From the NCBI RefSeq assembly GCF_017798165.1, contig NZ_CP059068.1, positions 4,712,001-4,776,000 of the forward strand: DNA of 64,000 nucleotides, in the 5' to 3' direction. This stretch comes from Rhodoferax sp. AJA081-3 (GTDB lineage: Bacteria > Pseudomonadota > Gammaproteobacteria > Burkholderiales > Burkholderiaceae_C). Positions 3,914 to 59,874 of the stretch are shown piece after piece. Below the pieces are notes generated by a model that worked only from the letters and a program-made list of their open reading frames with translations, was not told the origin of the DNA and did not search any database. Each line of letters starts with the position of its first letter. The stretch's first letter is position 1. The position numbers and the translations under genes are program-made.

Positions 3914-4543
3914 ATGAAACAAATTGCTACGTTTTTTATAGCTGCTTATGTAGCATCCGCGGGGGCTACAGGCCTAGATGGCTTGGAAGCCTTCGTCAAG
4001 ACGGTGAAGACAGCTCGCACCGACTTCACCCAGGTGGTGACGGTACCCGCCAAAGAGGGCCAGGCCGCACGCACCAAGACCTCCAGCGGTGTTTTCGAGT
4101 TCTCCCGCCCCGGGCGTTTCCGTTTTGTCTACAAAAAGCCGTTTGAACAAACCATAGTGGCCGACGGCCAGACCCTGTGGCTGTATGACGTGGACCTGAA
4201 CCAGGTGACGTCGCGCCCGCAAGCCCAGGCACTGGGCTCAACACCCGCCGCACTCATCGCTTCGGCCGCTGATCTAAAAGCCTTGCAGGCCGACTTTGCG
4301 CTCAAGGCCGATGCCGATAGCGAAGGCCTGGAGTGGGTGCTGGCCACGCCCAAAGTCAAGGACAGCGCCTTGCAGACCGTGCGTGTGGGCTTCAAGGCCG
4401 GTGAGCTGGCCGTGCTGGAAATCGTCGACAGTTTTGGCCAGAAGTCCAGCCTGCGCTTTAGCGCCTTCAAGGCCAATGTGGCGCTGGAGCCCGCAGCTTT
4501 TGCGTTCAAGCCACCAGCGGGAGCGGACGTGATTCGCCAGTAG
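3914..4543 (+). CDS. lolA: Outer-membrane lipoprotein carrier protein LolA
   Basis: Periplasmic chaperone that takes lipoproteins from LolCDE to LolB. 209 residues: an N-terminal signal peptide (about 1-20, Ala-rich, ending SAGA-TG) and then a LolA half-barrel starting GLEAFVKTVKTARTDFTQV. The motif RPGRFRFVYKKPFEQ and the following VADGQTLWLYDVDLNQV are typical of the family. Most of the signal peptide (residues 3-20) is encoded by a copy of the interspersed repeat family A in antisense orientation (3921-3974). No other in-frame start is available, because a TAA lies just upstream. The 3' end overlaps the convergent kinase gene by 38 bp. Located after ftsK, as in other Burkholderiales. Confidence 0.95.
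   Translation: MKQIATFFIAAYVASAGATGLDGLEAFVKTVKTARTDFTQVVTVPAKEGQAARTKTSSGVFEFSRPGRFRFVYKKPFEQTIVADGQTLWLYDVDLNQVTSRPQAQALGSTPAALIASAADLKALQADFALKADADSEGLEWVLATPKVKDSALQTVRVGFKAGELAVLEIVDSFGQKSSLRFSAFKANVALEPAAFAFKPPAGADVIRQ
3921..3974 (-). repeat. Repeat family A, copy 1 (inside lolA signal peptide)
   Basis: Read on the minus strand it begins GGCCTGTAGCCCCCG, continues through GCTACATAAGCAGCTAT and ends CGTAGCAA, matching the other family A copies. It lies wholly in coding sequence and encodes LolA residues 3-20. Confidence 0.8.
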
Positions 4544-10170: not shown

Positions 10171-10661
10171 AGGCGGCTTTCCAGTTGCAGCAGCGCCACT
10201 TTGCGCGGCAGGCCACCGGCATAACCGGTCATAGCCCCGTTGGCGCCCACCACACGGTGGCAGGGCACGATGATGCTGATGGGGTTGCGCCCCACGGCGC
10301 CACCCACGGCCCGTACGGCATTCGGGTTGCCAATCGATTGGCTGATGGCGCCATAACTGGTGGTCGCACCAGGTTCAATACCTTGCAAGGCGGTCCACAC
10401 ACGTTGCTGGAACGGTGTGCCGCGGCCCAGGTCCACCGGCACATCAAACTGGCTGCGTTCACCCGCAAAGTACTGCTGCAGCTCGTCGGCTGCCATACGC
10501 AACACCGGGTGGGTGGTAGATACAGTCCACTTGCTGGTGTCAGGCGCGTGTTTCTGGCCATCAAAGCCGACCCAGACCAGGGCATCCTCATGGGCGACCA
10601 GGGTCATGGCGCCCCAGGGGCTGGTCAGTGCACAGCGAACGGTTGTACGGAGTTGTTTCAT
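10167..10661 (-). CDS. ogt: Methylated-DNA-protein cysteine methyltransferase
   Basis: 164-residue suicide repair protein that removes O6-alkyl groups from guanine. The acceptor motif PCHRVV is intact with Cys134, preceded by the helix-turn-helix segment GTPFQQRVWTALQGIEPG and the Asn-hinge-like SIGNPNAVRAVGGAVGRNP. It lies between the Ada-AlkA fusion (upstream, 60 bp) and the overlapping EamA gene. Its leader is made of repeat A copy 2, and no strong ribosome-binding site is visible. Confidence 0.95.
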   Translation of the reverse strand: MKQLRTTVRCALTSPWGAMTLVAHEDALVWVGFDGQKHAPDTSKWTVSTTHPVLRMAADELQQYFAGERSQFDVPVDLGRGTPFQQRVWTALQGIEPGATTSYGAISQSIGNPNAVRAVGGAVGRNPISIIVPCHRVVGANGAMTGYAGGLPRKVALLQLESRL

Positions 10662-10670
10662 GAAAAAATG

Positions 10671-10723
10671 GGCCTCTAGCTCGCGTGAAATATGGTTATA
10701 AAGCTATCAAATATATAGCAATC
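10671..10723 (+). repeat. Repeat family A, copy 2
   Basis: GGCCTCTAGCTCGCGTGAAA with later AAGCTATC and ATATATAGCAATC, between ogt and the Ada-AlkA gene. It reaches the stop codon of the latter. The CCCC core is altered to TCG in this copy. Confidence 0.85.
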
Positions 10724-13489: not shown

Positions 13490-13528
13490 GGGTGCCGGGG
13501 CGGTGGCGGAATCATTGCCATTGATTTT

Positions 13529-13580
13529 GGCCTCTAGCCCCCGTGAAATATGATTGGTTAGCTATTGTTTATATAGCAAA
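13529..13580 (+). repeat. Repeat family A, copy 3
   Basis: GGCCTCTAGCCCCCGTGAAA, then TTAGCTATTG and TATATAGCAA. One of the best-preserved copies; it lies in the 212-bp gap before the phosphomannomutase gene, which otherwise holds no gene. Confidence 0.88.
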
Positions 13581-13701
13581 GTCGGAGCACTGCACTTTGC
13601 GGGGTTTCGTAGCGTCCGCACACCTACAATCCCCCGCTCAGGCAAGGCGCTAGCATTCCTCCCTTGCCAAAGACCACTCGCACAGGGAAAAGAACCGCAC
13701 C

Positions 13702-15084: not shown

Positions 15085-16184
15085 CCGAACGCCGGGCGCC
15101 CGCGCAAGCTCTTCCACTGGGTGTCGACCCGCAGGGAGCGGGGGAGCCTGGGGGAAAGATACTTGTGGTCAAGTTGTCCTCGCTGGGCGACGTGGTGCAT
15201 GCCATGCCGGCGGTACAGGACATGCGGCGTGCTTTCCCCAACGCGGAAATCGACTGGGTGGTGGAGCGGGCCTTTGCGCCCCTGGTGACGCGCTGTGAGG
15301 GTGTGCAAAAAGTCATACCCTGCGAACTGCGCAAATGGCGCAAGACACCCTTTGCGCAAAAGACACGGGCCGAATGGCGGGCTTTTAAACACCGCCTGCA
15401 GGCCGAACGCTACGACGCCGTGATTGACCTGCAGGGGCTGAGCAAATCCGCACTGGTGGCCTGGCTGGCACGCACCACACCAGACGGTCGGCGCATCGCC
15501 ATGGCCAACCAGACCGAGGGCTCGGGTTACGAGGCGCCGACCCGCTGGGTGGCCGATGTGGCCATTCGCCTGGAGCCGCATGTGCATGCGGTAGATCGCG
15601 CGCGCCTGCTGTGTGCACAGGCGCTGGGCTATACGGTGGAAGGCCCGGCGCACTTTGGTTTGAAGCCGGGTGAACACGTGGCCCTGCCGTGGGACCCGAC
15701 TGGCGGCCCCGGTAATTCTTTTGTGCCACGCAAGGCCTGTGTGGCCCTGGTGCATGGCACGTCGCGCGCGGACAAACAATGGCCCGTAGCCTCCTGGGTT
15801 GAACTGGGCCAGCGCCTGAACCACAGCGGTTTTGCCGTCGCCCTGCCGCATGGCAATGCCGTCGAAAAAGCCACCAGCGACGCAATTGCTGCCGAGCTAG
15901 ACGACGCCTGGGTCTGGCCGACCCTGGGGCTGGACGCATTGACCGACACCATGGCGCAATGTGCCGGTGTCATCGGCGTAGACAGTGGCCTGAGCCATAT
16001 CGCCGTGGCGCTGGGTCTGCCCCATGTGCAGATCTACAACTTTGACACCGCCTGGCGCACCGGCCCCCCCGCTGCCGAGCCCAAGGCCTCGCCCCAGGTC
16101 AGCGTCTACGCCAGTCCCTGCCCCGATGTAGGCGCCGTCTGGCAGGCCTGGGACAGCCTGGACACGCCCGTGTTGTGCCGCTAG
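15081..16184 (+). CDS. waaC: Lipopolysaccharide heptosyltransferase I
   Basis: Peripheral inner-membrane glycosyltransferase (GT9) that adds the first L-glycero-D-manno-heptose to Kdo2-lipid A. 367 residues; the first domain starts ILVVKLSSLGDVVHAMPAVQ, the strongest family signature, and the second contains VALVHGTSRADKQWPV and IGVDSGLSHIAVALGLP for ADP-heptose binding. The only plausible start is TTG 15081, which overlaps the pgm stop by 4 bp; no ATG or GTG lies before the conserved N-terminus. This gives a leader of about 26 residues that is longer than in most WaaC. waaA follows immediately. Confidence 0.92.
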   Translation: MTERRAPAQALPLGVDPQGAGEPGGKILVVKLSSLGDVVHAMPAVQDMRRAFPNAEIDWVVERAFAPLVTRCEGVQKVIPCELRKWRKTPFAQKTRAEWRAFKHRLQAERYDAVIDLQGLSKSALVAWLARTTPDGRRIAMANQTEGSGYEAPTRWVADVAIRLEPHVHAVDRARLLCAQALGYTVEGPAHFGLKPGEHVALPWDPTGGPGNSFVPRKACVALVHGTSRADKQWPVASWVELGQRLNHSGFAVALPHGNAVEKATSDAIAAELDDAWVWPTLGLDALTDTMAQCAGVIGVDSGLSHIAVALGLPHVQIYNFDTAWRTGPPAAEPKASPQVSVYASPCPDVGAVWQAWDSLDTPVLCR

Positions 16185-16186
16185 TG

Positions 16187-17500
16187 ATGCTGGTGCGTGC
16201 CCTGTACTCCCTGTTGATGTGGCTGCTGCAACCGGTCGTGCGCGCCAAGCTGCGCCGCCGCGCGGTGCAGGAGCCTGCGTATGGCCAGCACGTCGAAGAG
16301 CGTTTTGGTGTGTACCCGGCACTGGTAACCCCGCTGGCTGAGGGGCAGTATTTTGTGTGGGTGCACGCCGTGTCGCTGGGTGAAACCCGGGCCGCTGCAG
16401 AGCTGATCACCGCGCTGCGTACGGCCTTGCCCGGCATGCGCCTGCTGTTGACCCACGGCACGTCCACGGGCCGTGTGCAGGGGCAGACGCTGCTGCAGGC
16501 GGGCGATGTGCAGGTCTGGCAGCCGTGGGACACCCCAGCAGCCGCCAAACGCTTTCTGGACCATTTCAAGCCCCTTGTGGGCCTGTTGGTAGAGACCGAG
16601 GTCTGGCCGAATATGGTGGCCGCCTGCCAGGCACGCCATGTGCCGTTGTGCCTGGTCAATGCCCGCATGAGTGAGAAGTCACTCAAACAGTCCTTGCGCC
16701 TGGCCTGGTTGGCGCGCCCCGCCTACGCCGGCCTGCGCGCCGTATGGGCGCAGGCCGCGCCCGACGCCGCACGGCTGGCCGCGCTGGGTGCGCCGGTGCA
16801 GGGTGTGCTGGGCAATTTCAAGTTTGACGCCGTGCCCGACGCCGCGCAGTTGGCCCAAGGCCAGGCCTGGCGCCGTGCGCAGGTCCAGCCGGTGCTGGTG
16901 TTTGCCAATACGCGGGATGGTGAAGAGAGCCTTTTTCTCCAAGTCCTTAAGAGAAATCGGCCTGTAGCCCCCGTCGTTAATGATAGTGTTGCTACTAAAC
17001 ATATAGCAAATCAGAAAGTGCAGTGGATGCTGGTTCCCCGCCATCCGCAGCGTTTTGACGCCATTGCGGCTTTGTGTGAGGCCGAGGGGTTCACCGTGTC
17101 GCGCCGCAGCCAGTGGACCGATGGGCCAGAGCCCGCCGACATCTGGCTGGGCGACTCCATGGGTGAAATGGCGCTGTACTACGCGTTATCGGATGTCGCC
17201 CTGCTGGGCGGCAGCTTTGCGCCACTGGGCGGGCACAACCTGATTGAGGCTACGGCCTGTGGCTGCCCGGTGGTCATGGGGCCACACACCTTCAACTTTG
17301 CACAGGCGGCCGAGCTGGCGGTGGAGGCAGGTGCGGCGTTTGCCAGGCCCGATATGGCCCGCGCAGTAGCCAAGGCACTGGCCTTGGTGCAATCCACACC
17401 CGATTTGCACCAAGCCCAGGCCGCCGGCCGCGCGCTGGGCCAGGAACACGGTGGCGCCGCACAGCGCACCGCGCTGGCCGTGCAGCAGTTATTGGGCTAA
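16187..17500 (+). CDS. waaA: 3-deoxy-D-manno-octulosonic acid transferase
   Basis: Inner-membrane GT30 enzyme that transfers Kdo to lipid IVA. 437 residues with an N-terminal membrane anchor (MLVRALYSLLMWLLQPVV), the family motifs WVHAVSLGETRAA and GGSFAPLGGHNLIEA, and VVPRHPQRF-like LVPRHPQRFD. The start is ATG 16187 (GTG 16175 or 16184 are possible). It abuts the waaC stop. Residues about 258-275 (NRPVAPVV...HIANQ) are encoded by repeat A copy 4 and have no counterpart I know in WaaA; they lie between the second-domain strand ending FANTRDGEES and LVPRHPQRF. The frame is kept, so the enzyme is probably functional. Confidence 0.94.
   Translation: MLVRALYSLLMWLLQPVVRAKLRRRAVQEPAYGQHVEERFGVYPALVTPLAEGQYFVWVHAVSLGETRAAAELITALRTALPGMRLLLTHGTSTGRVQGQTLLQAGDVQVWQPWDTPAAAKRFLDHFKPLVGLLVETEVWPNMVAACQARHVPLCLVNARMSEKSLKQSLRLAWLARPAYAGLRAVWAQAAPDAARLAALGAPVQGVLGNFKFDAVPDAAQLAQGQAWRRAQVQPVLVFANTRDGEESLFLQVLKRNRPVAPVVNDSVATKHIANQKVQWMLVPRHPQRFDAIAALCEAEGFTVSRRSQWTDGPEPADIWLGDSMGEMALYYALSDVALLGGSFAPLGGHNLIEATACGCPVVMGPHTFNFAQAAELAVEAGAAFARPDMARAVAKALALVQSTPDLHQAQAAGRALGQEHGGAAQRTALAVQQLLG
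16959..17010 (+). repeat. Repeat family A, copy 4 (inside waaA)
   Basis: CGGCCTGTAGCCCCCGTCG, then TTGCTACTAAAC and ATATAGCAA. Entirely inside the waaA reading frame, sense orientation. Confidence 0.85.
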
Positions 17501-32997: not shown

Positions 32998-34062
32998 ATG
33001 CCCTCCACCGCCGACATCCGTATCCGCAGCGTGCGCCCGCTGATTTCGCCCGCCATTCTGGAAGACGAACTGCCGCTGGGCGACGCAGGTGCCGCCGCCA
33101 TCCACCAGGCCCGCCGCGATGTGGCCAAGGTCATTACGGGGCAGGACGACCGCCTGCTGGTGCTGGTGGGGCCCTGCTCGGTGCACGACCCGGCCTCGGC
33201 CATCGAATACGCGCGCAAACTGGCGTCCGTGGCTGCGGCCATGGCCGATGACCTGCTGGTGGTGATGCGGGTCTATTTTGAGAAGCCCCGCACCGTGGTT
33301 GGCTGGAAAGGCCTGATCAACGACCCCGGGCTGGACGGCAGCTTCCAGATCAACCGCGGATTGCGCCTGGCGCGCAAGCTGTTGCTGGACATCACCGATG
33401 TGGGCCTGCCGATTGCCACAGAATTTTTGGACACCACACTGGGCCAGTACTACGCCGACCTGATTTCGTGGGGCGCGATTGGCGCCCGCACCACCGAGAG
33501 CCAGATCCACCGCGAGCTGGCCTCGGGCCTGTCCATGCCGGTGGGCTTCAAGAACCGCACCGATGGTGATCTGCAGGTGGCGGTGGACGCCATCCTGTCA
33601 GCCCGCCACCCGCACTGCTTCCCGTCGCTGACACACGAGGGTGCGCCCGCCGTGCTGACCACATCTGGCAACGAACACACCCACTTGGTGCTGCGCGGCG
33701 GCAGCCGCAGTGGCCCCAACTTTGACGCGGCCCATGTGGCCGAGGCGGCAGCCCTGCTGCACAAGGCCGGCGCACCCCAGGCCATACTGGTGGACTGCAG
33801 CCACGCCAACAGCAGCAAGCGGTATGACCGCCAGCCCGAGGTGGCGCGGGATGTGGCGGGGCAGGTGGCAAACGGCCAACGCGCCATCATCGGCGTGATG
33901 CTGGAAAGCCACCTGGTGGCCGGCACCCAGCCCGTGGTGCCTGGCCAGCCGCTGACCTATGGCCAGAGCATCACCGATGCCTGCCTGGCCTTTGACGATA
34001 CGCTGCCCGTGCTGCAGGAGCTGGCCCATGCGGTGCGCAGCCGCAGAGCTAAATCACTATAA
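32998..34062 (+). CDS. aroG: 3-deoxy-7-phosphoheptulonate synthase, class I
   Basis: 354-residue cytoplasmic enzyme for the first step of the shikimate pathway: phosphoenolpyruvate plus erythrose 4-phosphate to DAHP. Diagnostic are LVLVGPCSVHDPASAIEYA, GWKGLINDP, ISWGAIGARTTESQIHRELASGL and VDCSHANSSK. Length and motifs fit AroF/G/H; the N-terminal extension gives feedback inhibition in relatives, which amino acid is unclear. The stop codon and last two residues fall in repeat A copy 5. Confidence 0.96.
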   Translation: MPSTADIRIRSVRPLISPAILEDELPLGDAGAAAIHQARRDVAKVITGQDDRLLVLVGPCSVHDPASAIEYARKLASVAAAMADDLLVVMRVYFEKPRTVVGWKGLINDPGLDGSFQINRGLRLARKLLLDITDVGLPIATEFLDTTLGQYYADLISWGAIGARTTESQIHRELASGLSMPVGFKNRTDGDLQVAVDAILSARHPHCFPSLTHEGAPAVLTTSGNEHTHLVLRGGSRSGPNFDAAHVAEAAALLHKAGAPQAILVDCSHANSSKRYDRQPEVARDVAGQVANGQRAIIGVMLESHLVAGTQPVVPGQPLTYGQSITDACLAFDDTLPVLQELAHAVRSRRAKSL

Positions 34063-34106
34063 AAATAATAGCTATATAGCTATATTTCACGGGGGCTAGA
34101 GGCCAA
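34054..34106 (-). repeat. Repeat family A, copy 5
   Basis: On the minus strand GGCCTCTAGCCCCCGTGAAA, then ATAGCTATTATTTTTATAGTG. Overlaps the last three codons and stop of aroG. Confidence 0.87.
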
Positions 34107-34150
34107 TTTGGCTTAAGGTGTTTCTGTGAAAAGCCCTCTGGTGTGCAGCG

Positions 34151-36311: not shown

Positions 36312-37469
36312 ATGAAAAATCACTTGGACTCCCTTCACCCCACACGCCGCCGTGTGCTGGGTGCGCTGGCCGCACTGCCGTTGGCATCTACTTTGCCAGC
36401 CCGCGCCGATGACACCGGCCCCATCAAGATTGCCCAGTCCATCGCGTTGACGGGCCCCTTGGGTGAGTTGGGCCAGGCCATGCACCAGGGGGCCAAGGTG
36501 TGTTTTGCTGCCATCAATGCCAAGGGTGGTGTGAATGGCCGACCGATTGAACTGACCGTGGCCGACGATGGCTACGACGTCAAACGCTCCCTGGCCAATG
36601 TGAATGGCTTTATGGAAGACCGCAGCAACTTTGCGCTGTTCAACTGCATGGGCACACCCATGATCGAGGCCATGCTGCCCAAGGTGATGGAGTCGGGCAT
36701 ACCGTTTTTTGCACCATTCTCCGGGGCCTTGTCGGTGCGGCCCAAAAATGCGCGCAATGTGTTCAACATCCGCGCCAGTTATGCCGACGAGGCCGAACAA
36801 CTGGTGCAGCACCTGGCCACGGTGGGCATCAAACGTATTGCCATCGTCTACCAGAACAATGCCTTTGGCAAAGAGGTGTTCACTGCCACGCAGCAGGCCA
36901 TCACCCGCTACAAGCTGGAGGCGATTGCGACATTGACCGTGGAGAACGATGCGTCCGACGCCGAGGCCGCCGCCAAGAAGATTGCCGCTGCAGCGCCCGA
37001 GGCCGTGCTGGTGGGCCTGGCGGGCAAACCCACCATCGCCTTTGTGAAAGCCGTGCGCCAGGAGCGCAAGGGCCTGCAGCTGTATGCGCTGTCCATCATG
37101 GGATCAGCGGCCACCATCGCCACGTTGGGGGGTGACGCCACCGGCATGACCATCTCGCAGATCGTGCCCTTGCCCAGCAATATGTCACGCCCCGTGGTGC
37201 GCGATTTTCAGCTGGCGTGGAAGGCGGGCAATGTGGCGTTGGAGCCGTCCCACCTGGCGCTAGAGGGCTACATCAACGCCCGTGTATTTGCCGAGACCCT
37301 GCGCCGCGCGGGCCGCAACCCCACACGCAGCAGTTTTATCGACAGCACCTGGGGCACCAAGAATTTGGACCTGGGTGGCTTTGCCGTCAACTTCAGCGAG
37401 TCTGCCGTGAACGCATCGCGTTTTGTGGAGCTGACCATGGTGTCCAACAACGGGCGGTTTATCCGCTGA
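36312..37469 (+). CDS. LivK-type periplasmic ligand-binding protein A
   Basis: 385 residues. A twin-Arg-like signal (TRRRVLGALAALPLAS) ends ARA-DD. The mature type I periplasmic-binding fold has KIAQSIALTGPLGELGQAMH and GVNGRPIELTVADDGYD, typical of branched-chain amino acid or aromatic binding proteins. No permease or ATPase genes follow. It is a clear paralogue of the protein at 40725-41885: both share HVRAGYxDExE/NIRASYADEAE, AIVYQNNAFGKEVF and the C-terminal FDLGG/LDLGG block. The ligand is unknown. ATG 36312 gives a normal signal peptide. Confidence 0.88.
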   Translation: MKNHLDSLHPTRRRVLGALAALPLASTLPARADDTGPIKIAQSIALTGPLGELGQAMHQGAKVCFAAINAKGGVNGRPIELTVADDGYDVKRSLANVNGFMEDRSNFALFNCMGTPMIEAMLPKVMESGIPFFAPFSGALSVRPKNARNVFNIRASYADEAEQLVQHLATVGIKRIAIVYQNNAFGKEVFTATQQAITRYKLEAIATLTVENDASDAEAAAKKIAAAAPEAVLVGLAGKPTIAFVKAVRQERKGLQLYALSIMGSAATIATLGGDATGMTISQIVPLPSNMSRPVVRDFQLAWKAGNVALEPSHLALEGYINARVFAETLRRAGRNPTRSSFIDSTWGTKNLDLGGFAVNFSESAVNASRFVELTMVSNNGRFIR

Positions 37470-40724: not shown

Positions 40725-41885
40725 ATGAAAACCATCGCTTCGATCCTGCCCGTCCTGCGGCGTGCCATCGCCTCGTCAGCCCTGTTGTTAGGCTTGGCTG
40801 GGCCTTTCGGGGGCAGCCAAGCGGCAGAAATCTCCATCGCCCAGGTTGCACCCTTGTCGGGCGTGCTCGCCAGCACGGGGCAACAAATGGTGCTGGGCGG
40901 GAAAATTTACTTTGCCTGGGTCAATGACAATGGAGGCATACACGGGGCCCGCATCAAACACATCGTGCACGACGATGCCTACAAGGTGGATGAGACCGTG
41001 CGGCTGACCCGTGAGGTGCTGGCCGACCCGGACGTTGTGGCCCTGTTTGGATACGCCGGAACGGCCAATGTTGCCAAGCTGCTGGCCGATGGTGTGCTGG
41101 ACGCGGGCGGTGCCCCGCTGGTTGCGCCCTATACCGGTGGTGAAGCGCTACGCACCCCATTCAATCCGCATATCTTTCATGTGCGGGCGGGCTACATGGA
41201 CGAGACCGAACACATGGTCCATCAGGTTGCAACCCTGGGCATGACCCGAATCGCCGTCATGTACCAGAACGATGCCTTTGGCAAGGCCGGACTTGCGGGT
41301 GTGGAGGCTGCCGTTGCCAAGCGCCAGATGAGGCTGGTAGAAACCGCTACCTACGAGCGCAACACGGATCAGGTCCAGGAGGCCGTGAAGAAGATCCACG
41401 CGGCCGACCCACAGGCCATCATCATGATTTCCGTCAACCGGTCTACGGCGGCATTCGCATCGCAGTACCGGACCGTGGGCGGCGGAGCGCAGTTGTACAA
41501 CATTTCGGTGGTGGACCCTGCAGAACTGGTTAAGTTGGCGGGCATCAAGGCCGTACACGGATTGGGTATCTCCCAGGTTGTGCCCTTTCCATTTGGTGCC
41601 AACAAGCCCGTGGTACGGGAGTACCAAGCCCTTTTGCGCAAATATGGCGGCGGGCAGGCACCCAGCTACACCAGCTTTGAAGAGTTTTTGGGCGCCAAGG
41701 TTCTGGTGGAGGGTCTGCGCCGCGCGGGGCCTTCGCCCACCCGGGCCAAACTGGTCAAGGGGCTGGAGAGTATGAACAACTTCGACCTGGGCGGCACCAG
41801 CATCCAGTATTCCCCAAACAACCGCATCGGCTCACGTTTTGTGGAGGTGACCGTGATTGGTGGTGCGGGGAAATTGCTGCGTTAG
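40725..41885 (+). CDS. LivK-type periplasmic ligand-binding protein B
   Basis: 386 residues. Signal peptide about 1-33 (ending SQA-AE), then EISIAQVAPLSGVLASTGQQM and the two-lobed type I binding fold. Paralogous to the protein at 36312-37469 along its whole length, ending NFDLGGTSIQYSPNNR...VTVIGGAGKLLR. No permease or ATPase genes are adjacent; the 80 bp upstream follow the oligomer hydrolase gene, so co-transcription is possible. Its last 4 bases overlap the convergent DJ-1-like gene. Confidence 0.88.
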   Translation: MKTIASILPVLRRAIASSALLLGLAGPFGGSQAAEISIAQVAPLSGVLASTGQQMVLGGKIYFAWVNDNGGIHGARIKHIVHDDAYKVDETVRLTREVLADPDVVALFGYAGTANVAKLLADGVLDAGGAPLVAPYTGGEALRTPFNPHIFHVRAGYMDETEHMVHQVATLGMTRIAVMYQNDAFGKAGLAGVEAAVAKRQMRLVETATYERNTDQVQEAVKKIHAADPQAIIMISVNRSTAAFASQYRTVGGGAQLYNISVVDPAELVKLAGIKAVHGLGISQVVPFPFGANKPVVREYQALLRKYGGGQAPSYTSFEEFLGAKVLVEGLRRAGPSPTRAKLVKGLESMNNFDLGGTSIQYSPNNRIGSRFVEVTVIGGAGKLLR

Positions 41886-45551: not shown

Positions 45552-46331
45552 ATGCTGTTTTTGCTCTCGCCCGCCAAGTCCCTGGACTACGAAACCCCTC
45601 TGGACCCCCAGCTCCCCCACACGCCCCCGCTGTTTGTCAAACAATCCAAAGAACTGATACACCTGCTGCGCACCTATTCGCCGCTGCAGATAGGCGAGCT
45701 GATGTCGCTCAGCGATGCGCTGTCTGCGCTGAACGTCGCGCGTTACCAGGCGTGGTCGTCCCGCGCTACGCCCAAGAATGCGCGCCAGGCGGTGTTGGCG
45801 TTTGATGGTGACGTGTATGGTGGCCTGGATGCGCGCAGCCTGGGCAGTGAAGACTTGGCCTGGGCGCAGGACCATGTCTGCATCCTCAGCGGGCTGTATG
45901 GTGTGCTGCGCCCTTTGGACCTGATGCAGCCCTACCGGCTGGAGATGGGCACGCGTCTGGCCAATGCGAGGGGGCGAGACCTGTACCACTTCTGGGGCAC
46001 GCAGATTGCGGATTACCTCAATACCCGTTTGCGTTCCGATATCAGCCCCGTGGTCATCAACCTGGCGTCGCAGGAGTATTTCAAGGCGGTGGACACCAAG
46101 GCGCTGAAGGCGCGTGTGGTGGAGTGTGTGTTTGAAGACTACAAGAACGGCCAGTACAAGATCATCAGCTTCTTTGCCAAGCGTGCACGCGGGCTGATGG
46201 CGCGGTATGCCGTCACCCACCAATTGGTCAAGCCCGAGCAACTGCGTGCGTTCGATGTGGACGGATATGCCTGGAGCGCCGCCCAGTCCACACCTGAGCG
46301 CATGGTGTTCCGCCGTAAAGTATCAAGCTAA
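45552..46331 (+). CDS. yaaA: Peroxide stress protein YaaA
   Basis: 259 residues, full-length DUF328/UPF0246 family. Start MLFLLSPAKSLDYETP, then VLAFDGDVYGGLDA, LSGLYGVLRPLDLMQPYRLEMGT in overlapping form, and VINLASQEYFKAVD. YaaA binds DNA and limits iron-dependent damage during peroxide stress in E. coli. Cytoplasmic. Followed by repeat A copy 6. Confidence 0.95.
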   Translation: MLFLLSPAKSLDYETPLDPQLPHTPPLFVKQSKELIHLLRTYSPLQIGELMSLSDALSALNVARYQAWSSRATPKNARQAVLAFDGDVYGGLDARSLGSEDLAWAQDHVCILSGLYGVLRPLDLMQPYRLEMGTRLANARGRDLYHFWGTQIADYLNTRLRSDISPVVINLASQEYFKAVDTKALKARVVECVFEDYKNGQYKIISFFAKRARGLMARYAVTHQLVKPEQLRAFDVDGYAWSAAQSTPERMVFRRKVSS

Positions 46332-46334
46332 ATG

Positions 46335-46378
46335 GGCCTCTAGCCCCCGTCCATACTCATTCATACGCTATGAAAATC
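46335..46378 (+). repeat. Repeat family A, copy 6
   Basis: GGCCTCTAGCCCCCGTCCAT, then ACGCTATGAAAATC. The ATG inside GCTATG is the start codon of the following hydrolase gene; the AT-rich tail is short or has become coding. Confidence 0.75.
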
Positions 46379-47314
46379 AAAGCAAACGGCATCGACATCG
46401 AAGTCGAAGACACCGCCGAGATCAACCCCCAGGACCTGGATGCCTACACCCGCCCAGCCGTGCTGCTGATCATGGGCCTGGGCATGCAACTGGTAGCCTG
46501 GCCACCACAGATGATCGAAGCACTGGTGGACGCGGGCTTTCGCGTCATCCGTATGGACAACCGCGACATCGGACTGAGCCAGCACTTCGACCACCTGGGT
46601 AAACCCAACATCCTCTGGGCAGGGCTCAAGTACAAGCTGGGTCTGAAAGTGGTTGCGCCTTACACGCTGGAAGATATGGCGCAAGACGCCTTGGGTGTGC
46701 TGGACGTGTTGGGTGTGGAGCGTGCACACGTGGTGGGTGTCAGCATGGGCGGCATGGTGGCGCAGCGCGTGGCCATCGCGGCGCCACAGCGCGTGCTGAG
46801 CCTCACCAGCATCATGAGCAGCAGTGGCGCCAAGGGCCTGCCACAGGCCAAGCCCGAAGTCACCCGCGTGTTGCTGAAGCGCCCGGAAAGTGATGCGCCC
46901 GAGGCCGTGGTGGACCATTACGTGCGCCTGTTCAAGGCCATCGGTAGCCCCGGCTACCCCGTGCCCGAGGACGACATGCGTGAACGCATTCTGCGCGGTG
47001 TGGAGCGCAGCTTCCACCCCGAAGGCACGTTGCGCCAGATGTTGGCCATCGTGGCCGACACCAAGCGTGCATCGCAGCTCGCCCACGTCACCAGCCCGAC
47101 CCTGGTGTTGCACGGCCGCGCAGATCCGCTGGTGCCGTTTGCCAATGGTGAAGACACGGCCGCTCGTATCCCCGGTGCGCGCTTGGTGGGCTTTGATGGC
47201 ATGGGGCACGACCTGCCGCCCGAGCCGGTGGCACTGATGCTGGACGAGTTGATCCCCCACCTGCAGGCCGCGGAACCGCCCGCACCCTACCTGGCGACGA
47301 AGGTCGTAGCATGA
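46370..47314 (+). CDS. Alpha/beta hydrolase
   Basis: 314 residues, cytoplasmic. Oxyanion-hole region [18 protein letters not shown], nucleophile elbow GVSMGGM (Ser125), acid in [15 protein letters not shown] and catalytic His in [11 protein letters not shown]. Resembles the esterase/epoxide-hydrolase-like group often annotated as PHB-depolymerase- or aclacinomycin-esterase-like; substrate unknown. The start codon lies in repeat A copy 6 and has no clear ribosome-binding site. The gene overlaps queF by 4 bp. Confidence 0.9.
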
Positions 47315-48178: not shown

Positions 48179-48232
48179 AATTTGCTATTAATTTGGTAGC
48201 GTAATGGTCAATAAATACGGGGGCTAAGGGCC
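48179..48232 (-). repeat. Repeat family A, copy 7
   Basis: On the minus strand GGCCCTTAGCCCCCGTATTT, then ACGCTACCAAATTAATAGCAA. Lies between the convergent queF and GGDEF-EAL genes, where a terminator might be expected. Confidence 0.85.
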
Positions 48233-48238
48233 AATTTC

Positions 48239-50092
48239 TTATAAACGCTCCAGCTCCGCCGCTGGCGCTGGGCGGCCGAAAAAATAACCCTGAAAAGCAT
48301 CACAACCCAGCTCGGCCAGCATATTGCGTTGCGCGGCGGTCTCCACGCCCTCGGCAATCACGGTCAGCCCCAGGCTGTGGCCCAGTGCCACGACCGAGCG
48401 GGCCACGGTGGCATCGCCTGGCTTGGTCAGCAGGTCTTGCACAAAAGATTTGTCGATCTTCAACTGGTCCAGTGGTAGCCGCTGCAGGTGTAGCAGCGAC
48501 GAATACCCGGTACCAAAATCGTCCAGCGAAAAGCCCACGCCCAGCGCCTTGATGGCGTGCATCTTGGTGCGGGTTTCGATGCTGTCGTTCATCAACATGC
48601 TTTCGGTCAGCTCCAGTTTCAGGCGCAGCGGGTTGACTCCGGTCTTGTGCAGTGCGGTGGCGATTTGTGTGACAAAACCCTCGTCGTCAAACTGGCTGCT
48701 TCCGACATTGATCGCCAGCGTCCAGTCTGCGGTGGCTGCCTGTTGCGCCCACAACACGAGCTGGTGGCAGGCGGCATCCAGCACCCACTGGCCCAGCAAT
48801 TGGCCCACGCTGGTCTGTTCGGCCAGTGCGATGAACTGCGCCGGCGGCACCAGGCCGCGGGTGCTGTGGTTCCAGCGCAGCAGGGCCTCGGCGCCAATGG
48901 GCACGCCTTGCACATCCACCTGGAACTGGTATAGCAGCATGAACTCCTGCCGGGCCAGGCCGCGGCGCATGTCCTGCTCCAGCAGTGCATGGGCGCTGAC
49001 CGTCGCCTGCATGGCCGGGTCAAAGAAGCGTGCCGTGTTGCGCCCGGCGGCTTTGGCCTGGTACATGGCCACATCGGCCTTCTTGAGCAGGTCATCGGTG
49101 CTTTCCTGGTCGCCCTTGAAGATGACGATGCCTATGCTGGGTGTGCTCTCGTGGTGGTGCCAGCGCAGGGTGTAGGGTTGTCCCAGCGCATTGAGAATTT
49201 TGTTGGCCACAAGTTCGGCGTCGGCGGCGCTCTCGGTGGCGGACGGGCTCAGGCCTTCGAGCAGCACCACAAATTCATCGCCACCCAGGCGTGCCACGGT
49301 GTCACCCTCGCGCACGCAGGTCTTCAGGCGCGCGGCCACCTGTTTGAGCAGGGCGTCGCCCAGGTCATGGCCCAGCGTGTCATTGAGCAGCTTGAAGTGG
49401 TCCAGGTCCAGAAACATCAGTGCGCCGCGCTGGCCAGACCGGCCGGATGTCTTGAGTGCCTGCTTGAGCCGGTCCAGCAGCAGGCGGCGATTGGGTAACT
49501 GGGTCAGCGGGTCGTAAAAGGCCAGGCGCTGGATTTCTTCTTCCTGCTGGCGGCGCTGGGTGATGTCACGTATTACTCCCACAAATGTGGGCCGGCCCGG
49601 ACGGGCAATTTTGGACACCGACAGGCTGATGGGGAAAATGCTGCCGTCCTTGCGTTTACCCAATATGTCTCGCGCCTGGCCCACCAGGTAGTTGGAGCCG
49701 GTGTGTTTGAACAGCAGCATTTGCTGGTCGTGCTCGCCGCTGTAGGGCTCGGGCAGCAACATGGCCACACTGTGGCCCAGCATCTCGTCAGCACTGTAGC
49801 CAAACAGTTTGATGGCCGCTTTGTTGACGGATTCGATCTGGCCGCGTTTGTTGATGGTGAGTACACCGTCGAGCATGTTGTCCAGAATGCTCAAGGTGTG
49901 CAGGGCGGCTTCTTGCAGGGATGCCTGGTCTGCGTTGTGCAGCGGGAACGCGCCGGTGCTGGCGCAGGTGCAAGCTTTATGGATCAGCAGGCAGCGGCTC
50001 TGTGCATCTTTGGACAGACAGAAGGTCGGCAGGCCATGCACCATATCGGGCAGATGCTTCTGCCCTGGCAGCATGACCGATTTTTTTTGCAT
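48239..50092 (-). CDS. PAS-GGDEF-EAL cyclic-di-GMP protein
   Basis: 617 residues, no membrane segment. N-terminal region with several Cys (about 25-45), a PAS domain (about 60-180, NMLDGVLTINKRGQIESVNK), a GGDEF domain with intact LGGDEFVVLLEG active site (about 190-345), and an EAL domain (about 365-612). The EAL domain has GAEALLRWNH, the loop 6 motif DDFGTGYSSL and EGVET. Both synthesis and breakdown of c-di-GMP are possible. The RxxD inhibitory site is not obvious. PAS may bind a redox cofactor or small ligand. The start could also be an inner Met. Confidence 0.94.
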   Translation of the reverse strand: MQKKSVMLPGQKHLPDMVHGLPTFCLSKDAQSRCLLIHKACTCASTGAFPLHNADQASLQEAALHTLSILDNMLDGVLTINKRGQIESVNKAAIKLFGYSADEMLGHSVAMLLPEPYSGEHDQQMLLFKHTGSNYLVGQARDILGKRKDGSIFPISLSVSKIARPGRPTFVGVIRDITQRRQQEEEIQRLAFYDPLTQLPNRRLLLDRLKQALKTSGRSGQRGALMFLDLDHFKLLNDTLGHDLGDALLKQVAARLKTCVREGDTVARLGGDEFVVLLEGLSPSATESAADAELVANKILNALGQPYTLRWHHHESTPSIGIVIFKGDQESTDDLLKKADVAMYQAKAAGRNTARFFDPAMQATVSAHALLEQDMRRGLARQEFMLLYQFQVDVQGVPIGAEALLRWNHSTRGLVPPAQFIALAEQTSVGQLLGQWVLDAACHQLVLWAQQAATADWTLAINVGSSQFDDEGFVTQIATALHKTGVNPLRLKLELTESMLMNDSIETRTKMHAIKALGVGFSLDDFGTGYSSLLHLQRLPLDQLKIDKSFVQDLLTKPGDATVARSVVALGHSLGLTVIAEGVETAAQRNMLAELGCDAFQGYFFGRPAPAAELERL

Positions 50093-51602: not shown

Positions 51603-52892
51603 CTAAAACAGTTGGTCGGTCACTGGTTCAAAAGTGATAGCACTACCGTCAGGTTTTACGGGGGCTAGAGCCATATTTTCCTCAAACCCATCGCCGCTGG
51701 CACGTTTGTGCAGCGCCCCCACCCGCACACCCAGCAGGCGCAGTCGCTTCTGCAAGGGCGCACGCTTCAGGCACAGGCCCGCCACCCTGCGAATCTCCTT
51801 GGCGTCGTTGATGTGGCGCTCAATCGTGATGTCGCGCGTGACGGCGGTGAAGTCTTCAAACTTGATCTTGATGCCAATCGTCTTGCCGACATAACCCTTG
51901 CGCTGCAGGTCGCCGGCCAACTGTTCACACAGTCGCGTGAAGATGGCGCCCAGCTCGGCCTTGTCGCGCACGGCGTGCAGGTCGCGCTCGAACGACGTCT
52001 CGCGGCTGATGCTGACCGGCTCACTCTCCAGCACGATGGGCCGGTCGTCCTGGCCGTGGGATGCCGCATGCATCCACGCGCCGGTGCGCTGGCCAAAGGT
52101 GTCCATCAGCCATTGCAGATCTTTGGCGGCCAGCTGGCCAATGGTCTCAATGCCGTGGCTTTTGAGTTTTTCATCGGCCTTGGGACCAATGCCGTTGATC
52201 TTGCGGCAGGCCAGCGGCCAGATCAAGGTTTCCAGATCACTCTCGTAGACGATGGCAATACCCTTGGGCTTGTTGAACTCGCTGGCCACCTTGGCCAGCA
52301 GTTTGTTGGGTGCCACGCCGACGGAGCATGTTAGGCCGGTGGCTTCAAAAATGCTTTTCTGGATCAGGCGCGCCAGCACACGCCCACCCTCGCGTTGGCC
52401 ACCGGGTACGTCGGTGAAGTCGATATACACCTCGTCCACACCGCGGTCCTCCATCAGCGGCGCGATCTCGGTGATGATGGATTTGAACTGGCGTGAGTAC
52501 CTGCGGTATTCGTCAAAATCCACGGGCAGAAGAATGGCCTGTGGACACAGTTTGGCGGCCTTCATCAGGCCCATGGCCGAGCCTATACCGAACTTGCGCG
52601 CGGCGTAGGTGGCGGTGGTGATGACGCCGCGCCCGGTGTAGCTGTGCAGCCGGGCGAAGGCGTCTAGGGGTATACGTTTCAGCGCCGCGCGTTGGGCGGC
52701 TTCGTCCCAGGGATGCTCAGGCTCGGACGGGTCCGCATCGGCCAGGTCTTGCGCGCGCAAAACCTTCAACGCATCCTGTATGGCCTGGCGCCCGGCCGCA
52801 ATGACAACTGGCTGATCTTTCAGCTGGGGGTAGCGCAGCAGCTCCACCGACGCGTAAAACGCGTCCATGTCCAGGTGGGCAATGCGCCGCAC
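51603..52892 (-). CDS. dinB: DNA polymerase IV (DinB)
   Basis: 429-residue Y-family translesion polymerase. Catalytic DMDAFYASVE at the N-terminus and DEVYIDFTDV for the second metal site; HhH region INGIGPKADEKLKSHGIETIGQLA; little-finger domain at about 260-380. Between the first strand and the YAARKFG motif there is a longer loop (about residues 35-85) than in E. coli DinB, as in many Burkholderiales. The final 17-20 residues (ALAPVKPDGSAITFEP) come from repeat A copy 8, followed by VTDQLF, which resembles a beta-clamp-binding QLxLF end. The DHH phosphoesterase gene lies 5 bp upstream. Confidence 0.94.
   Translation of the reverse strand: MRRIAHLDMDAFYASVELLRYPQLKDQPVVIAAGRQAIQDALKVLRAQDLADADPSEPEHPWDEAAQRAALKRIPLDAFARLHSYTGRGVITTATYAARKFGIGSAMGLMKAAKLCPQAILLPVDFDEYRRYSRQFKSIITEIAPLMEDRGVDEVYIDFTDVPGGQREGGRVLARLIQKSIFEATGLTCSVGVAPNKLLAKVASEFNKPKGIAIVYESDLETLIWPLACRKINGIGPKADEKLKSHGIETIGQLAAKDLQWLMDTFGQRTGAWMHAASHGQDDRPIVLESEPVSISRETSFERDLHAVRDKAELGAIFTRLCEQLAGDLQRKGYVGKTIGIKIKFEDFTAVTRDITIERHINDAKEIRRVAGLCLKRAPLQKRLRLLGVRVGALHKRASGDGFEENMALAPVKPDGSAITFEPVTDQLF
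51627..51673 (-). repeat. Repeat family A, copy 8 (inside dinB 3' end)
   Basis: On the minus strand GGCTCTAGCCCCCGTAAAAC, then GTGCTATCACTTTTGAA. Coding for part of the DinB C-terminus, in the same frame relation as copy 4 in waaA. Confidence 0.78.
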
Positions 52893-59678: not shown

Positions 59679-59709
59679 CGCCGTTGGCGGGATCGTTATG
59701 CATCAAATA

Positions 59710-59758
59710 TGCCTCTAGCCCCCGTTCAATATGACTGTCTTGCTATCAAATATATAGC
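59710..59758 (+). repeat. Repeat family A, copy 9
   Basis: GCCTCTAGCCCCCGTTCAAT, then CTTGCTATCAAATATATAGC. In the 196-bp non-coding gap after the DUF3999 gene. Confidence 0.87.
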
Positions 59759-59874
59759 TTTTTATTTCTTTGCTTGGGCGGCCGATGTGGGACCACAGCA
59801 GGGCACAAAGGCAGTTGACTTTGCAGGGCCGCTGCACAATAGTTGCAGCGTCAACCCATAGCAGAGGGGCCACC

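Follow-up and report, generated by a model that had tools for sequence, protein, structure and literature searches.

Introduction

REP/BIME sequences are high-copy small repeats that often lie near gene ends and are accompanied by RAYT (Y1) transposases. Rickettsia palindromic elements (RPE), reportedly described by Ogata et al. in 2000, are by analogy the closest known kind to the repeat analysed herein, designated family A. According to the available excerpt of one source, RPE are stem-loops 105-146 bp long with terminal inverted repeats (PMC2229807). In Yersinia, a RU-2/YPAL repeat is described, in excerpts of two sources, as contributing to the signal peptide predicted for YPO1552 (PMC2759123, PMC2229807). 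Repeats are also known from the Comamonadaceae; beta-proteobacterial repeat elements (BRE), as characterized in the available part of PMC3110155, measure ~90 bp, have 69% G+C in Bordetella, and are arranged in tandem in up to 29 copies, with four in Rhodoferax ferrireducens, some BRE copies (like those of family A) residing in coding sequences. In the portion available of the R. ferrireducens genome paper, the palindromic repeats named are CRISPR (PMC2755013), and the available portion of a REP/RAYT study contains no mention of the genus names looked for (PMC3733652). No description of family A was found in the open-licence literature on coding repeats, Comamonadaceae repeats, lol genes or uptake sequences.

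Family A was examined in a 64,000-nucleotide stretch of Rhodoferax sp. AJA081-3 (hereafter the window; contig NZ_CP059068.1, positions 4,712,001 to 4,776,000), the remainder of that genome and a panel of relatives. Like RPE, as far as excerpts describe them, it is a small repeat located both between genes and within conserved protein genes, which read through it in-frame, using more than one of its frames; it differs in being ~66 bp long, in having a short dyad without covariation, in belonging to the Comamonadaceae and in making predicted signal peptides. A long stem-loop with terminal inverted repeats was not found in family A, which is thus not filed as RPE, though it works like one. The RU-2/YPAL case, in the excerpts, concerns a single putative protein, conserved between Y. 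pestis and Y. pseudotuberculosis, whereas family A involves a conserved carrier protein across several genera, together with LolB, SCO1/SenC and others, and shows constraint at the DNA level. Uptake sequences (USS/DUS), in the excerpt of PMC2346458, resemble family A in having hundreds of copies, clade variants, coding as well as intergenic positions, a frame preference and a bias towards gene termini, and family A copies are also evenly spaced, as tested for a DNA uptake sequence; however, motifs there span 10-12 nt (PMC2346458), in contrast to ~66 bp here, and the family A copy in WaaA is an insert. With REP/BIME, family A shares its high copy number, small size and frequent position beside gene ends, but Y1_Tnp does not follow family A, copies of which also lie in-frame inside genes. 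Identity with BRE was set aside by description only, i.e., by length, G+C content and copy number as given in the excerpt, family A being ~66 bp, 44% G+C and present in hundreds of copies.

Results

The head of the repeat, GCCTCTAGCCCCCGT (15 nt, at most 3 mismatches), matched nine sites in the window, whereas 100 shuffles averaged 2.7 matches and never gave more than 8; one of the nine (3959-3973) is the antisense copy in lolA. Across the complete 5.17-Mb genome in which the window lies (G000), 430 head matches were obtained (at most 2 mismatches) versus 14 for a reversed control pattern. A weight matrix was built iteratively, with the lolA copy excluded, from 60 evenly spaced 20-kb stretches of this genome plus the window (1.264 Mb), and 162 copies in this sample scored above 20. 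The element is ungapped, ~66 bp long and 44% G+C, with the consensus ttTaaG..AAAT.gGCCTcTAGCCCCCGT.aAat.Tg..tat...GCTAT.aAtTt.aTAGCAa.t.

Besides the copy in lolA, the initial annotation had counted eight other places in the window, which was right: nine strong copies are present, along with three weak ones (scores 12-17). Strong copies on the forward strand lie at 10658..10723 (score 65.3), 13516..13581 (64.5), 16946..17011 (65.3; read through in-frame inside waaA [kdtA; 16175-17500; PF04413]), 46322..46387 (the end of which holds the start codon and MKIKAN of the next predicted gene) and 59697..59762 (69.3). On the reverse strand they lie at 3922..3987 (the lolA copy), 34052..34117 (79.2), 48180..48245 (68.7) and 51621..51686 (54.8), the last supplying the C-terminus of a DinB-type (impB/mucB/samB) polymerase gene at 51603-52892 (PF00817, PF11799). 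Separately, the window contains an 86-nt direct repeat (36786-36871 and 41199-41284; 77% identical, 4.4 kb apart), which perhaps reflects two related genes.

The gene lolA (3914..4543, forward strand; PF03548, E 1.8e-41) encodes the outer-membrane lipoprotein carrier, with the N-terminus MKQIATFFIAAYVASAGA-TGLDGLE, its closest named record being that of a Rhodoferax sp. MAG (88% identity). A repeat match in its signal-peptide DNA had been annotated over 54 bp; the match is real and longer, comprising 66 ungapped bases (3922-3987, reverse strand) that run from about codon 3 into the mature part. By the matrix trained without it, this copy scores 60.0, against 4.4 for the second-highest of 797,000 shuffled positions, and 45% of other copies score below it; the lolA copy is thus an average family member by score. 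Read in antisense, it encodes a hydrophobic core and an AGA site, and the annotated proposal that the repeat encodes the signal peptide is upheld. Any copy of the repeat read in the lolA frame tends by its nature to give an Ala/Ile-rich peptide bearing a GA/AxA-like site. This frame is open in 89 of 152 copies (peptide consensus.Ai..IA...y.TGArG.), and lolA ranks 12th of those 89 in core hydropathy. At 77 of 81 element-bearing lolA loci (drawn from two overlapping sources), [ATVSC]xA stands one residue before G[LMI]. Signal peptides were called by a hydropathy-and-motif rule, and export is accordingly a prediction; at the level of sequence, the putative export tag of LolA is confirmed to be written by one copy of an old genomic repeat.

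The DNA motif in lolA is conserved beyond the needs of the protein. When the signal-peptide region was recoded synonymously with the gene's own codon usage, all 2000 recodings fell short of the observed score in each of the 11 repeat-bearing lineages; in eight element-free lolA controls, 15, 15, 288, 503, 217, 936, 106 and 40 of 2000 attained it (among these controls, L086 and L134 share identical signal-peptide DNA, and L104 and L089 come from genomes without a family census). Over 66 distinct element-bearing lolA sequences, variability at third codon positions dropped with the information content of the element (rho -0.66, p 0.0008), with first and second positions giving nonsignificant values of -0.34 and -0.40, respectively; the third-position correlation in 42 element-free sequences was 0.02. 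Chance similarity is ruled out by the score of 60 versus 4.4 for shuffled positions, the recoding result and this third-codon pattern.

Of 130 lolA loci (overlapping between two sources), all save L043, which is too short, could be scored, and 81 of the 129 were positive for the element. It occupies one register of lolA in Rhodoferax, Polaromonas, Acidovorax, Comamonas granuli and Giesbergeria; in Curvibacter, the anchored alignment places it 9 nt away from that register. Counting genomes with single matches, the family itself was found in 20 of 61 relatives (20/37 within the genus, 0/24 order-level outgroups) and in 15 of 20 named genomes, one of these with a single match; copies per genome were counted among the best 85 scored candidates for relatives or the best 150 for named genomes, such that these counts are minima, and stretches of genomes other than G000 were picked around known matches. 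With the family considered present at 17 or more matches and absent at 10 or fewer (a cut chosen after the counts were known), and with the duplicates G101 (= G003) and G103 (= G034) omitted, 56 genomes could be classified: 27 have both the family and the lolA element, none has the family alone, one has the element alone and 28 have neither. The single family-free, element-positive genome (G008) bears a worn copy scoring 16.5, and the double-negative genomes include one with 10 family matches (G023) as well as four order-level outgroups, in which lolA signal peptides are present without the motif. Ordinary orthology, i.e., the same lolA DNA in family-free relatives, had been raised as a way in which the match could mislead; 28 of the 29 family-free genomes lack the motif and the remaining one retains the worn trace. 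The constant place of the lolA element across genera and its co-occurrence with the family in 27 of 27 family-bearing genomes together indicate an old event.

A quick tree built from mature LolA and the FtsK-like protein encoded upstream requires nine changes of state for the family and eight for lolA, and in no pair differing in the family does lolA change in the opposite direction; well-supported branches carry only four independent pairs, too few for significance (sign test p 0.125-0.25). In Acidovorax, A1169 (one family match) and Root219 (none) retain a signal peptide of similar sequence, KKIVTAIVIAASAQWASADG, written with different codons. The motif has clade variants; in strain TS-BS-61-7, the consensus over the genome is GGCCTCTAGCCCCCGTgGAtatTGCGCaAGCAGCTA, and the lolA copy has GGCCTCCAGCCCTCGCCGATATTGCGCAAGCAGCTA. 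Tracking by lolA of its own lineage's variant was nonetheless rejected: among matrices derived for 11 lineages, each without its own lolA copy, the lineage's own matrix fitted lolA best in only three, and lolA of Acidovorax, Comamonas, Curvibacter and Giesbergeria falls at the low end of family scores (0-4th percentile), so that a remark at clade level alone is warranted.

By a gene model based on our own ORF calls and a codon model, 116 of the 162 copies are intergenic, 43 lie inside genes (one of them, L162, a spurious gene with in-frame stops) and three fall at stretch edges. The lolA copy was not counted as genic by this model, which thus undercounts N-terminal copies. Intergenic copies lie close to gene ends, at median distances of 12-32 nt in co-directional and convergent gaps, with 30 of the 116 between convergent genes. 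Genic copies are read through in few preferred frames. The waaA site is common to several genera: all eight family-bearing genomes compared are filled there (best scores 30-79) and all four family-free ones are motif-free. Two conserved waaA motifs are 138-141 nt apart in element-bearing genomes (G000, G003, G105, G112) and 93-96 nt apart in element-free ones (G018, G032 and Ramlibacter G118), with an interval of 147 nt, lacking the motif, in Variovorax G113. The copy adds a net 14-16 residues (42-48 nt) ahead of the conserved LVPRHPQRF motif, and within this insert the protein sequence varies and the DNA motif is kept. Absence of the insert from element-free homologues was thereby found for WaaA, the one gene examined. 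As a side observation, the WaaA of Variovorax holds a motif-free remnant.

Several further exported proteins, LolB among them, likewise seem to owe their export tags to this repeat. In the AJA081-3 genome, 6 of 11 N-termini in the lolA frame were flagged as signal-peptide-like by the rule above, and a seventh (L166:7287-7757) lay outside the filters of the flagged list. Besides LolA itself and this L166 protein, those with such a predicted signal peptide in the lolA frame comprise LolB (L166:3135-3608, about 2013135-2013608 of the genome; PF03550, lipobox IAGC), a SCO1/SenC lipoprotein (L193; PF02630), a polysaccharide deacetylase (L142; PF01522), a lipoprotein without a Pfam match (L146) that has a relative in TH121 (L358), and a Metal_resist-like protein below the cut-off (L150). 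The unflagged N-termini in this frame resemble what we take to be CysN, ThiD and DUF934 proteins. Further cases are a transglycosylase (PF13406) in Curvibacter and a DsrE protein (PF02635) in Polaromonas. Of 13 family-bearing genomes tested for LolB, 11 (from Rhodoferax, Curvibacter and Polaromonas; scores 41-66) have its predicted signal peptide encoded by the element, which is missing from both Acidovorax tested and from all three family-free genomes. The predicted SCO1/SenC signal peptide is element-encoded in 4 of 5 family-bearing genomes, the element being absent in Polaromonas G107 and in family-free G018. Taken together, LolB and SCO1 scores of 41-68 compare with a maximum of 15.1 in 1500 random stretches. 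Over ten lineages, the rule flagged 11 of 26 N-termini in the lolA frame and 7 of 31 in the remaining frames, with two genes counted in both, which does not establish that the lolA frame is enriched in signal peptides.

The initial annotation had regarded the repeat as mobile or spreading, for which the copies give no support. Identity between pairs drawn from 152 copies averages 0.555 and peaks at 0.82, the latter near the 0.76 (on average) to 0.80 (at most) produced by within-column shuffling; copies share a profile and little else, leaving recent mobility unsupported. They are spaced more evenly than random over the 60 stretches (L141-L200), with a variance/mean of 0.58 (P 0.0045), or 0.66 (P 0.028) against a gap-based null, and a range of 0.58-0.84 (P 0.003-0.031) over twelve settings. 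Strand bias relative to GC skew was not significant (55 vs 39 copies at skew >0.02, p 0.12). The consensus folds at -0.15 kcal/mol and contains only the 5-bp dyad GCTAT-N7-ATAGC; no covariation was detected in 50 copies, for which an RNA structure was rejected, and the window gave no Rfam match at gathering score. Searches for a mobiliser or DNA-binding protein found none, and the candidates considered do not track the family. Most repeat-free members of the genus carry a Y1 transposase, and G031 lacks one yet has at least 85 repeats among its best-scored candidates, so that a Y1 transposase was rejected as the mobiliser. ComEC, tried as a marker of an uptake system, occurs in, and is missing from, both family-bearing and family-free genomes.

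Discussion

We consider it probable that family A is an ancient insertion family, resembling Rickettsia palindromic elements, that has been repeatedly exapted as a signal peptide and whose motif is maintained in trans. It is an old interspersed element of ~66 bp in the Comamonadaceae, present between genes and in-frame inside genes, which (with an insertion origin suggested by WaaA) would have come to lie at the 5′ ends of genes whose products are exported. One frame of its antisense strand encodes x-A-i-x-x-I-A-...-T-G-A-x-G, i.e., a hydrophobic run of Ala/Ile with an AxA-like site after it, and because that frame already possessed the run and a GA/AxA site it could serve as a signal peptide. 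Early in the history of the family, the copy at the lolA 5′ end may have become a Sec signal peptide, presumably in replacement of an older one, with other copies becoming the signal peptides, including lipoprotein ones, of LolB, the SCO1/SenC protein and further exported proteins. The motif would then be kept in every copy by a process acting in trans on the whole family, the simplest such process being a DNA-binding protein with a chromosome-wide role and selection on its sites. In a lineage losing this process, all copies, that of lolA included, would erode, following which the signal peptide would persist with other codons or drift.

For maintenance of the motif, the main rival is biased recombination as in uptake sequences. 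A long uptake or chromosome-maintenance motif could accumulate through such molecular drive as opposed to insertion, and the coding copies, signal peptides included, would be by-products tolerated near gene ends, as for USS/DUS. The even spacing under either null, the column profile as the only feature shared between copies, and the clade variants of the motif are all in keeping with this, as are the frame preference that the available excerpt reports for uptake sequences and their bias towards gene termini in Pasteurellaceae (PMC2346458). The net insert of 42-48 nt in WaaA nevertheless points to insertion, the motif greatly exceeds in length the 10-12 nt quoted for uptake motifs in that excerpt (PMC2346458), and the inconsistent occurrence of ComEC also speaks against such drive, which we thus regard as unlikely. 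A role chiefly as an RNA-level signal (a terminator, or a processing or stability hairpin), with coding copies accidental, is more doubtful still: proximity of intergenic copies to gene ends, with 30 of 116 between convergent genes, and the GCTAT-N7-ATAGC dyad would suit it, but the lack of covariation in 50 copies, a consensus fold energy of about zero and the absence of an Rfam match at gathering score in the window do not.

The direction of copying could also be reversed, with lolA or another exported gene as the source and the family derived from a piece of a signal-peptide gene. The lolA copy does lie at the base of the sampled family, Curvibacter and Polaromonas included; most copies, however, are intergenic or within cytosolic proteins, those of LolB and SCO1 are equally good family members, and the lolA copy bears no mark of ancestry, making this origin very improbable. 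Hardly credible is convergence at the protein level, whereby lolA would resemble the repeat only since both encode Ala/Ile-rich hydrophobic peptides. Though the repeat is hydrophobic by itself in the lolA frame, this explanation conflicts with the failure of all 2000 synonymous recodings in each of 11 lineages, with third-position conservation that follows the element, and with the identical, ungapped 66-bp register.

Within the favoured reading of an exapted insertion family, we tentatively entertain, at somewhat less than even expectation, the further idea that the repeat is a dispersed signal-peptide cassette, kept by a trans-acting system and recruited repeatedly in one antisense frame (LolA, LolB, SCO1/SenC, the deacetylase and lipoproteins), such that essential signal peptides would become ordinary again in any lineage from which the system is lost.

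Bacterial coding repeats have mostly been treated as tolerated inserts; here, a repeat supplies the apparent export signal of LolA in several genera, plus those of LolB and others. An apparent export signal of this kind, combined with a DNA motif conserved beyond protein need, renders exaptation into core secretion testable. The findings also point to a recognition system with hundreds of sites in the Comamonadaceae, the loss of which would be traceable by the erosion of those sites. If the cassette reading is true, a genome-wide DNA element would thus shape essential signal peptides.
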